A stretch of 25,772 bases of DNA from a virus. Shown piece after piece: positions 9,407 through 23,972 of the stretch. Both the position numbers and the translations under genes were made by a program. The stretch's first letter is position 1. The number at the start of each line of letters is the position of its first letter. Below the pieces are notes generated by a model. That model searched no databases. It worked only from the letters and a program-made list of their open reading frames with translations, and had not been told where the DNA came from. The stretch is taken from positions 1 through 25,772 of IMG/VR virus record IMGVR_UViG_3300029990_000049; one strand, 5' to 3'.

Positions 9407-11695
9407 CTAGTTACCATCCTTCTTAGGAGGAGTCTGTTTAGCCAACACTCCGTAATAAGTTTTAGGGAGGTTAAACGTGTCATCAGGCGGCGTCAACAAC
9501 CCGTAGTAAGTCCTTGGGATGTAGAACGTATCGTCAGGTGTGCCCAAAATGCCGTAATACGTGTCAGGTATTATGAAGTAGTTAATTGGGTCGTCATTAC
9601 CAATAGAACGGATGTACGAGTTATCTTGAACCTTAACAGTGTATTCAAAAGAGTGCTTGAACTTGTCAACACTCTTAATGAAGTTGTTATCTTTCAGCTT
9701 GATGGTCGAAGCCATGTCCGCTTCAATAGTAGGCCTATCTGGAAACAAAAAGGCCAATACAGATTCAAGTTCTCGGATACCGTCCATGTTGGATTGGACG
9801 TTAAGCATCACGTTTCCAAAGTCAGCATCAAGACTATTGCCAGGGCCTGTCAGTTTACTGTCACCAACTGACACTTCGTTTGGAAGTTCGGTAACACCGA
9901 TCTCATCAGCCATCTCTTTAATGAAATGGATGGTGTACGAAGAGAGCCGAGACATGATATCGATAAGGTCGCTTTGCTTGACCCGCATGTTTGGTTGGAT
10001 ATTGGTATCCCAGCCAGTCACACGTTTAAAGATATCCCAGGCAAACGTTTTGCACTCAGCCGCTGAGTAGTCAGAGAAGTCCAGGTTGTAATCACGCAAC
10101 AACAGATCGTACTTGGTATATTCGCCAAGCTTAACGAAACCTGAATCGTAAACTGTCTTAGTGGCGTTTTTAACTCGAGCACGTTTATTCAGATCGTAAA
10201 ACTGACTGTACATCTTCTTGTGTTTCCACATCGCCTCATAAACCTCAAAGGCGTACTGGACAAGATAGTCAGGGGCTACAAAGTTAGCAACTGGAAACCA
10301 AATGTTGCGGATATCGTAGGCAAGGTATTCGGGGTAAATAAAGTTCTTACCGCCAGCCTCATAGACGTCTGCAAGACTAGGTGGCTTAATTCGCATCACG
10401 TTCTGGTAATAAACTGGACCAATGTCAACAGGGTGGAACCCATTGCTATAATCGACCAGATACCGCCAAATGTGATACGCATCGGCAACTGTCATCTTGA
10501 TTTGTTTGCCAGTCTTTGGATCAGACACGACAACACGACCAGTGAACTTGTTATTGCCAACCAGATAGATCCATTCGTTATACACAACAGACATCAAAGT
10601 ATCAGCATGGCGGTTGGTGTAGTCACGCATGCTAGATTCTAAGACTTTAGTAGGTAGTTCCGAGTGAAGACTGTACTTACCACGTTCTAAGGCGTCCTGT
10701 TGATAGATGGCCGTTTGATCGTAGTTGTCCCTGGCTAACAACTGCTGTTTAAGAATAATCTGTTCAGTGGTGTTGTAGGTGGGTTCCCGGCCGTAGTCCT
10801 CAATGAGATTAAGGTTAAGACGGCGATACAACGGAGTTGGACTAAGATCTTCCAGCTGCGTTGCGGTACCTTCCACCATGTCAAACTTAGCCAGCGGAAT
10901 ATTTGCAATAGTCAGCAAATTCTCCATCAGCTTATTAAACGTCAACGTCTGCCCGGGGTTATTCTTAATCCAGGCAATGTTACGAAACAACCACATGGTT
11001 TGTTCGCGGTTAAGACTATTTTTATATTTGGAGAAATCCCCGTAGGAATCAATGTGGCTCCAGATATAAAAGTCATGACTGTGCCGAGTGTACATGTCTT
11101 CAATGCGAATTGTGTGAATTGCTTTGATGACGTCAGCCATAAGCAAACGGCTCATGGTAGGGAGAAACAAGTTATCCGTACCGATATATTCGTTGTTAAA
11201 AAGCTGACTGACTTCAGACTTAATAAAGTTTTGAAGCTTTGGAATTAACTGGTCCTCGTTCCACAATACTAACTTTTCATTGTACCGAAGAATCTTATAG
11301 TCATCGGCGGGAATCGTTTCCGCATAAGGGATCGGGGAGAGTATGCCGCGTATCAGTGTTGGTTGAGCTGGATAACGTTCGGTAAGCCGTTTAAACCAAT
11401 AACCGCCCTTAGCGTATTCACGGAAAGTAATCAGGTGAACACGCAGGTTCTCTTTGTTAAAGACGATTTCTTCGTCGTTATCCAGAGAGTTAACGGTCAT
11501 TGGTACGTCGGTCTCATGATAGTCCCCGTTAAGGTTCATGTAGTACCGCCAAGTAGCTTTATCTTCTTTTACAATATAACCCACACGCTCTAGGGCCTGG
11601 TTATATCGTTTTGCTAACGCCTCATTTTTGATAACCATGGTTCTTGCAAGGGAAAAGATGTCCCTGAAGTACCTGTCTTTATCAGCATTATTCAT
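9407..11695 (-). CDS. Large structural-type protein with three C-terminal TYYG repeats
   Basis: ATG 11695 opens a 762-residue frame, the first gene of a minus-strand run. The body is rich in Tyr, Asn, Asp and Trp, without signal peptide, membrane helix or enzymatic motifs; this is typical of large jumbo-phage virion proteins. Near the C-terminus two related segments, KLKDNNFIKSV and KVQDNSYIRSI, are followed by three exact-length 17-residue units (residues 707-757): FIIPDTYYGILGTPDDT, FYIPRTYYGLLTPPDDT and FNLPKTYYGVLAKQTPP. The same core occurs in the frameshift tail of the capsid gene. By position (between portal-like and tail-like genes) it may be a head-tail connection or tail component, but the family is not recognised. 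The start lies 25 bp from that of the divergent portal-like gene. Confidence 0.65.
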   Translation of the reverse strand: MNNADKDRYFRDIFSLARTMVIKNEALAKRYNQALERVGYIVKEDKATWRYYMNLNGDYHETDVPMTVNSLDNDEEIVFNKENLRVHLITFREYAKGGYWFKRLTERYPAQPTLIRGILSPIPYAETIPADDYKILRYNEKLVLWNEDQLIPKLQNFIKSEVSQLFNNEYIGTDNLFLPTMSRLLMADVIKAIHTIRIEDMYTRHSHDFYIWSHIDSYGDFSKYKNSLNREQTMWLFRNIAWIKNNPGQTLTFNKLMENLLTIANIPLAKFDMVEGTATQLEDLSPTPLYRRLNLNLIEDYGREPTYNTTEQIILKQQLLARDNYDQTAIYQQDALERGKYSLHSELPTKVLESSMRDYTNRHADTLMSVVYNEWIYLVGNNKFTGRVVVSDPKTGKQIKMTVADAYHIWRYLVDYSNGFHPVDIGPVYYQNVMRIKPPSLADVYEAGGKNFIYPEYLAYDIRNIWFPVANFVAPDYLVQYAFEVYEAMWKHKKMYSQFYDLNKRARVKNATKTVYDSGFVKLGEYTKYDLLLRDYNLDFSDYSAAECKTFAWDIFKRVTGWDTNIQPNMRVKQSDLIDIMSRLSSYTIHFIKEMADEIGVTELPNEVSVGDSKLTGPGNSLDADFGNVMLNVQSNMDGIRELESVLAFLFPDRPTIEADMASTIKLKDNNFIKSVDKFKHSFEYTVKVQDNSYIRSIGNDDPINYFIIPDTYYGILGTPDDTFYIPRTYYGLLTPPDDTFNLPKTYYGVLAKQTPPKKDGN
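9425..9577 (-). repeat. Three tandem 51-bp units encoding the TYYG repeat
   Basis: Three adjacent 17-codon units share F-x-(I/L)-P-x-T-Y-Y-G-(I/V/L)-L. Codons for the invariant residues differ between units (TAT TAC GGC, TAC TAC GGG, TAT TAC GGA). The repeat is therefore old and kept at the protein level, not a recent DNA duplication. Confidence 0.9.
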
Positions 11696-21696: not shown

Positions 21697-21786
21697 GCCT
21701 CATCGACAGTGTCAAGAGGGGTACTAGGCAGGCCCCTCTAACAGACCGTAGTAGGTCGATGGAAGGATGAGGCCTACGGGTTTCCC
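21697..21786 (-). promoter_or_regulatory. Candidate -1 frameshift signal at the end of the capsid gene
   Basis: The heptamer GGGAAAC (21786-21780) fits X XXY YYZ, and its phase matches the capsid frame (gcG GGA AAC CCG TAG). After a 6-base spacer, GCCTCATC (21773-21766) can pair over 8 bp with GATGAGGC (21704-21697). The loop between contains a second hairpin, AGAGGGG (21739-21733) with CCCCTCT (21721-21715), and a possible CCGTAG/CTACGG pairing that competes with the spacer. Spacer length and stem are as in known -1 sites. Folding is judged by eye only. Confidence 0.7.
21724..21780 (-). other. Predicted 18-residue frameshift tail of the major capsid protein
   Basis: After a -1 slip on GGGAAAC, translation continues in the -1 frame as PVGLILPSTYYGLLEGPA to TAG at 21726-21724, giving a 749-residue form in place of 732. 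The stretch has no start codon of its own. Its core LPSTYYGLL matches the three 17-residue repeats of the 762-aa protein at 8 or more positions, with different codons. That match is the main reason to believe this frame is translated. A recent indel or a sequencing error that split one longer gene is the alternative. Confidence 0.72.
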
Positions 21787-23972
21787 GCTTCGATGGCGCC
21801 TTGGATGCCAGCCAGAGCTGGAGCCAGACCTTCGATGGCGATGCGCTGTTTTGCCAGCTTGGTCAGCAGACCGTTATCACCCAGGAACTCTGCGGCGTCA
21901 GTGATCTTCAGCGAACCGATGATCGGGTTGAGCGCCCAGTGTTTGTAGGTAGGGATGGTCATGACCACACCGAAGTCCTGCTGATCACGAGTCACGTTAC
22001 CTTGTACAACGATGTTCTCTTTCGAGACAACGACGCCGACACCGCCCAGTGGGTTGATGTAATCGGAAGTCGAATCGTTTTGGGTAACGATCAGGATCTC
22101 ACCGATCTGGCTGTCGAAGTTGGTTTCGACGGCTTTCATGGTGGTCAGAGGACCCAGGGTACGAGCGTCGCCCAAACGGAGCAGGAAGCGGCACAGGTTC
22201 TGGTGAGCGATGATGTTCCACTTCGGAGAAGTAGCACCGCCGTATTCGGCGATCGCGGCGATACCGGACTTGGTAGTCAGGGCCGAAACGATGTCGCTGA
22301 TTTCGTTGGTGAACACGGCGCAGACTGCTTCCAGCACACCGGTGCTGTCTTGGGTCGATACGACGTCGGCCAGGGTGATCTTGCGGTTTACTGCGGCAGC
22401 TTGCACGTAGTGCATGCCTGGCAGGACGTTGGAACCCTGGTTGTTCGAGACCACAGCATGGCCGTCGATGGAGGTGATGTACGCCAGGTGCTCAGCAGCC
22501 ATGTCGAACGCTTTACGCGAGCACTGGTTGTTGATCGCCACCGACATTTGCTCGATCGCGTAGTCCAGGGAGCCCTGGTTCACGTCTTGCTTGTCGATTG
22601 GGTATTTCACAGACACCGGGTCGCCACGTTTGACGGACAGGTGCTTGTCGGCATCGAACACTTCGATACGGTAGCCGAAGTTACCGCGCGAGTTGTTGGT
22701 CACGTTACCGGTGATTTCGATACCGGATACGGAACCGTTGGTCAGGGTGCGGAACAGTGATTTCTGAGCGTCATCAGCGCGATCACGAGTGATCACGTTA
22801 CCGGTTGGGATGTGCTGGAGAGCAGTGATCGAAACCTGGCCGCCGTTCAGGCGCATGACGTTCTTTTGACGCTGGTAGTTGCCGTCCATCGACACGTCCA
22901 GCAGAGGGCGGTAGCCAGCTGCTTTCAGATCGGCGAACAGGGTCTCACCAACTTCCAGGCCGTCTTTGTCCTGTACAGCAAAACCGTTGTGACGGTTCAG
23001 CAGGATGGCCATTTTGCGGTCATCGGACGATTGGCCGTTCGAAGTCGGGATGAAGGTGTTGTTCGACATCGCCTTGGTGTTGATGAAGAACGTCTTGACA
23101 GTGCCCTTGATAGTAGCGGTCAATTGCAGAGTCTGACCGGTGAGCGAGTTGGACTCGATCTCGTCGGTAGCGGTGTACGGACGCTGGCCAGGGGTTTCGC
23201 ACAGGCCCAGGAAGTTCGGAATGACGCTCGGAACTTTCAGGAAGCTGGTCAGGTGGTTTTCGCGGCCCAGGGCATCAGCTTCCATGTAGGTAGCGGTCCA
23301 TGGGGTACGGTCGGCGGCTGGAACGAACAGCTCGCGGGTGTCGTCGGTGTCCGACTCAGGGTACACAGGGTGTACAGCCAGGGCGGATTCGGCGAACATT
23401 TTGCCGGAACGCAGCAGACCGAAGATCGGTTGCAGTTCGGAGGCGGACTGCCAGGCGCTGTTGCCGTAAGCGTAAGTACCCAGACCAGCGGCACGAACCT
23501 TCATCAGGACGCCTTCGTCTTCGTAACGAACGGTCAGGGTGGCGAACAGTGCTTCGGCGCCAGGAGTCTGCAAGTGGCTCTGGGCGTTGAGGGCCATGTT
23601 CAGAGCTTTGACGGTGGTTTCCGAGCCTTCCCAGTTCTGCATCGAGAAGCCTTCCAGGCCATCGACGGTACCGTAGAAGCTTTCGGTACGTTCAACGATG
23701 TCTTTCAGCTCGCTCGGAGCAATGTTGGTGGTACGGCCGAACGAGGATTGGAACGCGGCGAAGTTCTTGTCGTTCAGACGAGTGGCCAGCATGCCATTCA
23801 GCGATTGGCTCTCAGCGCCTTGAACACGAGCCAGGTCGAACTTGCTCGAGAAGCCAGAAAAGTTTTCCTGGCCTTGCACCGCGGTCAACGATTCGTTCTT
23901 CAGTGCATCAGCGATCAGCTGAACAAGGTTACCCTCGTTCTTGAGACCCATCTTAATCTGTTTGTAAGCCAT
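21774..23972 (-). CDS. Major capsid protein (phiKZ gp120-like)
   Basis: ATG 23972 follows AAGGAATTCC. The 732-residue zero-frame product is close in length to phiKZ gp120 (about 747). It has a charged N-terminal region, an Ala/Gly/Gln-rich middle, a long beta-rich body without membrane or enzyme motifs, and a helical end. The gene is visibly richer in G+C and uses a narrow set of codons (CTG, GGT/GGC, AAC, GAC, CAG) unlike its neighbours. This is usual for the most abundant virion protein and explains the long antisense open frames. In phiKZ the capsid protein is cut near residue 163 by a prohead protease; GAE at 138-140 is one candidate site here, unproven. A single-gene transcript is suggested by the upstream AT-rich leader and the downstream terminator. 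A frameshifted longer form is predicted. Confidence 0.85.
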   Translation of the reverse strand: MAYKQIKMGLKNEGNLVQLIADALKNESLTAVQGQENFSGFSSKFDLARVQGAESQSLNGMLATRLNDKNFAAFQSSFGRTTNIAPSELKDIVERTESFYGTVDGLEGFSMQNWEGSETTVKALNMALNAQSHLQTPGAEALFATLTVRYEDEGVLMKVRAAGLGTYAYGNSAWQSASELQPIFGLLRSGKMFAESALAVHPVYPESDTDDTRELFVPAADRTPWTATYMEADALGRENHLTSFLKVPSVIPNFLGLCETPGQRPYTATDEIESNSLTGQTLQLTATIKGTVKTFFINTKAMSNNTFIPTSNGQSSDDRKMAILLNRHNGFAVQDKDGLEVGETLFADLKAAGYRPLLDVSMDGNYQRQKNVMRLNGGQVSITALQHIPTGNVITRDRADDAQKSLFRTLTNGSVSGIEITGNVTNNSRGNFGYRIEVFDADKHLSVKRGDPVSVKYPIDKQDVNQGSLDYAIEQMSVAINNQCSRKAFDMAAEHLAYITSIDGHAVVSNNQGSNVLPGMHYVQAAAVNRKITLADVVSTQDSTGVLEAVCAVFTNEISDIVSALTTKSGIAAIAEYGGATSPKWNIIAHQNLCRFLLRLGDARTLGPLTTMKAVETNFDSQIGEILIVTQNDSTSDYINPLGGVGVVVSKENIVVQGNVTRDQQDFGVVMTIPTYKHWALNPIIGSLKITDAAEFLGDNGLLTKLAKQRIAIEGLAPALAGIQGAIEAGNP

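Follow-up and report, generated by a model that had tools for sequence, protein, structure and literature searches.

Coat proteins that occur additionally in a minor, longer form made by frameshifting within the capsid gene are known from T7 (10B), T3, Lactobacillus phage A2 and Listeria phages (PMC5009743), and a like arrangement is predicted for the locus described here. The extensions in T3 and A2 are Ig-like domains, whereas the extension predicted here has 18 residues, and its core is met again at the C-terminal ends of further virion proteins; neither 'phage EL' nor 'phiKZ' is mentioned in the accessible portion of that review. Short peptides of 7 to 29 residues have also been suggested as the links by which receptor-binding proteins are held on an anchor protein in KP32/KP34, K1-5 and SP6 (PMC6872550, accessible portion). 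In those branched receptor-binding complexes the peptide is N-terminal and belongs to the attached protein; in the EL clade, by contrast, it is C-terminal, lies on the presumed scaffold side and is found on the capsid protein as well. A literature search conducted mostly without subscription journals retrieved no description of a frameshift in the capsid genes of EL- or phiKZ-type phages, and in the accessible part of the PaBG paper the term 'ribosomal frameshift' is confined to the title of a cited reference. Within the literature searched, the conserved -1 site at the end of the major capsid protein (MCP) gene is apparently undescribed, while frameshifted coat proteins and docking peptides are each already known.

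The whole stretch of DNA analysed, hereafter the window (25,772 nt), comprises virion genes of an EL-like jumbo phage, namely a phiKZ-type MCP, a polymerase-type protein, virion proteins and a 762-aa protein. The MCP and the 762-aa protein share 100% identity with those of G001, a 229-kb IMG/VR contig, and a near-identical twin of the window (L026) is included among the 25 MCPs counted below. The features of interest are as follows.

9407..11695, minus strand: 762-aa protein, homologue of phiKZ gp128 (baseplate inner peripheral region), PHROG_3222
9545..9571, minus strand: tag copy 1, IPDTYYGIL (six-frame scan)
9494..9520, minus strand: tag copy 2, IPRTYYGLL (six-frame scan)
9443..9469, minus strand: tag copy 3, LPKTYYGVL (six-frame scan)
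21774..23972, minus strand: MCP, 732 aa in the 0 frame, Pfam PhiKZ_MCP, PHROG_3231
21780..21786, minus strand: slippery heptamer G_GGA_AAC, then one codon (CCG), then the MCP stop (window sequence; the same heptamer in L026)
21724..21780, minus strand: predicted -1 frame tail after slippage, PVGLILPSTYYGLLEGPA and a stop
21739..21765, minus strand: tag copy 4, LPSTYYGLL, inside the -1 tail (six-frame scan)
21697..21773, minus strand: predicted hairpin, a putative frameshift stimulator, directly after the MCP stop and 6 nt after the heptamer

Six-frame scanning of the whole window with [ILV]PxTYYGxL located three copies near the C-terminus of the 762-aa ORF, at a spacing of exactly 51 nt (17 residues), and a fourth in the -1 frame beyond the MCP stop, with no match besides those four. 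The initial annotation had described the triplet as three exact 17-residue units; the period and the core are exact, but the units are not identical and their spacers vary. Its observation that the copies differ in codons is borne out at the matching G001 sites, where synonymous codons differ among copies. The fourth copy had been placed only in the capsid frameshift tail, which is correct within the window; the MCP tail is not the sole other carrier, because a third protein outside the window has the motif. The shared tag is confirmed as real and extends further than was first noted, and its consensus in the EL clade may be written as [IL]PxT[YDN]YGxL.

Frequent occurrence by chance, the outcome that had been named as fatal to the motif, was not encountered in the phage records scanned. 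Among five whole genome records scanned in six frames (G001, G010, G005, EL and RisingSun), 21/21 top-score hits belonged to one of three carrier types, that is, an MCP tail, a gp128-type protein or a protein with the PHROG_18233 domain, and ended 2 to 61 residues from the C-terminus; in that scan the RisingSun MCP tail was too short for the 16-residue ORF filter, and the tails of EL and G005 scored under the cut-off. At the DNA level, PxT-[YNDHFLIV]-YG gave 83 matches vs 16 for the reversed pattern over 22 records, most of the 83 being located in the MCP tail, at the 762-aa C-terminus and at a third location. Nine outgroups yielded 10 matches of the DNA pattern, 0/10 of which form a tag-like C-terminus: five are in stretches of at most 12 residues and the rest are without the x-L ending or located elsewhere. 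A chance origin of tag and heptamer is rejected on the reversed-pattern, five-record and outgroup counts together with the heptamer-window counts given further below. When the 58-residue C-terminal repeat was compared with phage records by tblastn, only weak matches were returned (best E about 2), and homology search with the repeat alone is therefore not useful.

A related string, PQTYYGWRP, is common to three clade genomes (G004, G010 and G017), where it is internal in another ORF; being internal and without the L, it was not counted as a tag. Its sites are the following.

L066 3311, L067 3929, L068 3818 (-): internal PQTYYGWRP (sequence)

With reference to the capsid gene, a -1 frame tail with YG-x-L is present past the MCP stop in 22/22 MCP loci of 22 related records, and again in FishSpeaker, MIZ-Pa99 and L237, the last being a genome found only via the third tagged protein. 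The tail thereby occurs in 25/25 EL-clade MCPs, some of them near-duplicates, with 21 distinct motif sequences and none dropped; vB_PQ1, with an MCP annotated in fragments, and L236 also have it and stand outside the count of 25. All 21/21 distinct motifs match x-x-[TAY]-[YFND]-Y-G-x-L, and the stricter P-x-T-[YFND]-Y-G-x-L is matched by 12/21, the remaining 9/21 departing from PxT. No such tail was found in 9/9 distant relatives (PDCC-1, Miami, VP4B, pTD1, AH04, OBP, D6, SXP01 and AhC3_1). The tail measures 18 residues in the window and the -1 open stretch 14-26 residues over 24 MCPs, and at this short length the tails contain no Ig-like extension domain. Over the three codon positions of the -1 frame, the variation within the motif is 0.40, 0.20 and 0.60. 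In the Y and G codons positions one and two are invariant, and position three of the G codon holds unequal bases in 73% of pairs. It can be deduced from this pattern that the tail is selected as a peptide, and the -1 frame overlapping the MCP end is open and under protein-level selection. The earlier interpretation is partly supported: its proposal of a selected short linear motif common to unrelated virion proteins is upheld, and a single binding partner of the copies would be a further supposition. A scan of IMG/VR with a site-plus-tail pattern drawn from known members returned 5/5 hits at EL-like MCP ends, one of them on a new contig.

An in-frame X_XXY_YYZ heptamer lies within the last seven sense codons of 19/22 MCP genes, the 22 being those with a distinct sequence after the stop, as compared with 1/2046 seven-codon windows elsewhere in the same genes and 0/9 outgroup genes. 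The heptamers seen are CCCAAAC/T, GGGAAAC, AAACCCG and AAAAAAC (for L045 an overlapping CCCGGGA is found first), and the three genes without a canonical heptamer, L030, L036 and L038, read GTA ACC CCG TAA. A -1 stop stands directly 5' of CCC AAA in L041, L043, L044, L123 and L237, and the tail can therefore be entered only at the heptamer in these five genes. Judged from its sequence, the MCP end is a conserved programmed -1 frameshift site with a predicted extended product, and the capsid copy of the tag, situated behind that site, should therefore be substoichiometric, as had been anticipated. It could alternatively be presumed that the -1 tail represents a vestige or an independent small ORF and owes nothing to frameshifting, in keeping with the annotation of the EL, RisingSun and FishSpeaker MCP genes as single 0-frame genes. 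However, the heptamer counts, the five genes whose -1 stop immediately precedes the heptamer and the third-position bias all oppose such an origin, which we hold to be extremely improbable. The genetic part of the account is well supported and very probably correct. The proteomic study of RisingSun lysate lists the MCP as gp83, and the word 'frameshift' is absent from its main text in the portion accessible (PMC6034870).

Excess folding follows the MCP stop. The 78 nt after the stop in the window fold with z -4.64, and a stretch starting one base later and reaching 31 nt further at the far end gives z -0.59, a result that speaks against the hairpin. Taking 78 nt from the stop, z<-2 is obtained in 17/22 MCP genes vs 5/110 coding windows of 78 nt; with varying start and length folded the number of genes ranges from 11 to 18 of 22, and coding controls reach z<-2 in 6, 5 and 14 of 110 windows at 60, 78 and 110 nt. 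Over these 78 nt the nine outgroup genes reach still greater stability (mean z -5.5 vs -3.3), owing to terminator-like hairpins, and folding energy alone is therefore no proof of a stimulator. A check for covariation among five close relatives gave a two-sided change in only 1/30 pairs of the hairpin. At the frameshift site Rfam gave no match and a terminator scan nothing, and a promoter scan gave one weak site on the opposite strand.

The 762-aa protein is homologous to PHIKZ128 (phmmer 5.9e-79), a protein whose structure is known from the phiKZ baseplate, where it belongs to the 'inner peripheral region'. The match to phiKZ gp128 (PDB 9xqs chain C) spans residues 8-596, and the tag lies beyond residue 596. 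A low-confidence model of the protein (mean pLDDT 49.9, and near 30 at the C-terminus, for which a mini-strand had been suggested), used solely for the gp128 match, returned 9xqs_C by Foldseek at 1.3e-22. Tag copies number 0 to 4 in the homologues, in accordance with the suggestion that copy number differs by protein. Random lack of the motif among homologues had been named as a refuting outcome; of 21 homologues 18 have at least one strict copy, L004 and L012 have none and the one in L021 is cut by the contig end. The FishSpeaker homologue, also uncut, has no copy either. With three uncut homologues lacking a copy vs 25/25 MCPs having the relaxed form, the tag would appear not to be strictly required on the 762-aa protein. 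The FishSpeaker homologue (L136 4012-6699), devoid of the tag, has other C-terminal repeats, SISGL and VSKSLTGL.

The third tag carrier, outside the window, is a PHROG_18233 protein of about 200 aa that ends in IPxTDYGxL; RisingSun gp197 shares the domain and is among the top-score tag carriers. A 13-member alignment of the family has the motif contributing 5/10 invariant columns at a mean identity of 41%, 12 of the 13 members having been chosen by the motif itself. G014 and G015, which were kept out of the alignment, have the variant PPTNYKQL; G011 has PPTYYGQL. A tagged member, RisingSun gp206, has been found in crude phage lysate by one 95% peptide (PMC6034870, accessible portion). The predicted structure is of good quality (mean pLDDT 91.5) and most resembles a chain from the phiKZ baseplate 'outer peripheral region' (Z 6.2, rmsd 4.3 over 127 residues), the next best match having Z 4.0; the Z 6.2 match is below the safe level of the tool and may reflect only a common arrangement. 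Foldseek against the PDB gave nothing at E<=0.001, and a PDB profile search with the family was rejected as chance-level (E>=0.14), its matches including flavivirus envelope proteins with a TDYG stretch. Folds like that of the third protein occur in predicted proteins of RisingSun/Joad and other jumbo phages, including tagless relatives. We infer that the third protein serves as an anchor or adaptor.

The PHROG_18233 domain is present in 20/32 records, comprising 18/21 EL-like IMG/VR records in addition to FishSpeaker and MIZ-Pa99, and in 0/9 of the outgroups that lack the MCP tail; the three EL-like records without it are partial contigs of 38, 126 and 143 kb. This distribution could indicate that the domain is itself the receptor of the tag, with tails inserting into a neighbouring copy in a donor-strand-like manner, in which event the tags on the capsid and gp128 would anchor PHROG_18233 assemblies. 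Its own tail has the tag, modelled with fair confidence (residues 181-190, pLDDT 86), and 19 of the 20 records have at least two matches to the family. Set against this, other ORFs have the same distribution and related folds exist in jumbo phages without the tag, and a receptor role for the domain is judged unlikely.

The second PHROG_18233 paralogue, which is untagged, often has a conserved C-terminal peptide of its own, for example YDGTYKYDGTIKY or FNGQFRYDGTLTY; a narrow pattern for this peptide matched two paralogues and nothing else in nine genomes. The untagged paralogue is found at the following positions.

EL 163316-163927, minus strand: untagged PHROG_18233 paralogue
G001 84690-85358, plus strand: untagged PHROG_18233 paralogue
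G005 66789-67406, plus strand: untagged PHROG_18233 paralogue

It stands directly upstream of the tail-fibre gene in G001, and in EL a lipase gene is between them. The paralogues would presumably be the same anchor equipped with different C-terminal peptides.

In 16/18 records having both, a PHROG_18233 gene and the chaperonin gene are no more than about 1.1 kb apart (EL gp146/gp147; G001 106525-108781). Proximity of this kind, along with the variant PPTNYKQL in G014 and G015, would suit a non-virion factor, such as the phage chaperonin, that reads the tag as a folding or assembly signal. All 9/9 outgroup genomes nevertheless encode a chaperonin and are without the MCP tail, the two genes are apart in RisingSun and FishSpeaker, and tagging a minor share of the MCP would not aid the folding of the bulk; we regard a folding signal as very unlikely.

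Overall, we propose that the EL-clade jumbo phages may use one C-terminal docking tag at several virion places. It would be displayed in 1 to 4 copies on most gp128 homologues of the baseplate, once at the C-terminus of the small anchor-like PHROG_18233 protein and, by way of programmed -1 frameshifting at the last MCP codons, on a minor fraction of the capsid subunits. The tag would most likely bring the same partner, for instance a fibre or decoration protein, to several virion sites; its dose would depend on the efficiency of frameshifting in the case of the capsid and on the tandem repeats in that of the baseplate. Taken whole, with docking tag, common partner and capsid frameshift, this explanation is slightly favoured. 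The prospects of a common partner in the virion are about evenly balanced, and the particular version wherein one fibre or decoration protein is mounted on both head and tail via one peptide, by frameshifting on the capsid and tandem copies on the baseplate, is put forward tentatively, at rather less than even chances.

The sharing of one signal by head and baseplate proteins would likewise be accounted for if the tag sent virion parts to an intracellular assembly site, be it a membrane or a replication compartment, and capsids of nucleus-forming phages dock on the phage nucleus. The bulk MCP is untagged, however, and three gp128 homologues are without tags, and we deem such targeting quite unlikely.

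Returning to the docking tag, ten G001 ORFs have counterparts throughout the five other clade genomes but not in any of three outgroups (blastp 1e-3). One of them, which runs antisense to the 762-aa gene, was not retained; nine are left, two of which are the PHROG_18233 paralogues, and not all nine are proven genes. These clade-specific ORFs are the first candidates for the tag partner, which could also predate the clade. To our knowledge the purpose of frameshift extensions on phage capsid proteins is unsettled. If true, the docking proposal would supply a concrete reason for a phage to make a minor frameshifted capsid protein and would suggest a way of setting the number of attachment points on the shell; with the peptide of the extension recurring on other virion proteins, the question of the extension becomes a binding experiment with a defined peptide.

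Further minor observations concern individual genomes. RisingSun gp201 (L053 14500-16164) and gp89 (L054 15756-18050) have in common a second C-terminal motif around DLGDI. The MCP of vB_PQ1 (L133, PQ516283.1) is annotated as several pieces, probably owing to sequencing errors in the record, and the EL-like phage MIZ-Pa99 (L132, PV472050.1) is filed under Straboviridae, probably by an error of taxonomy.
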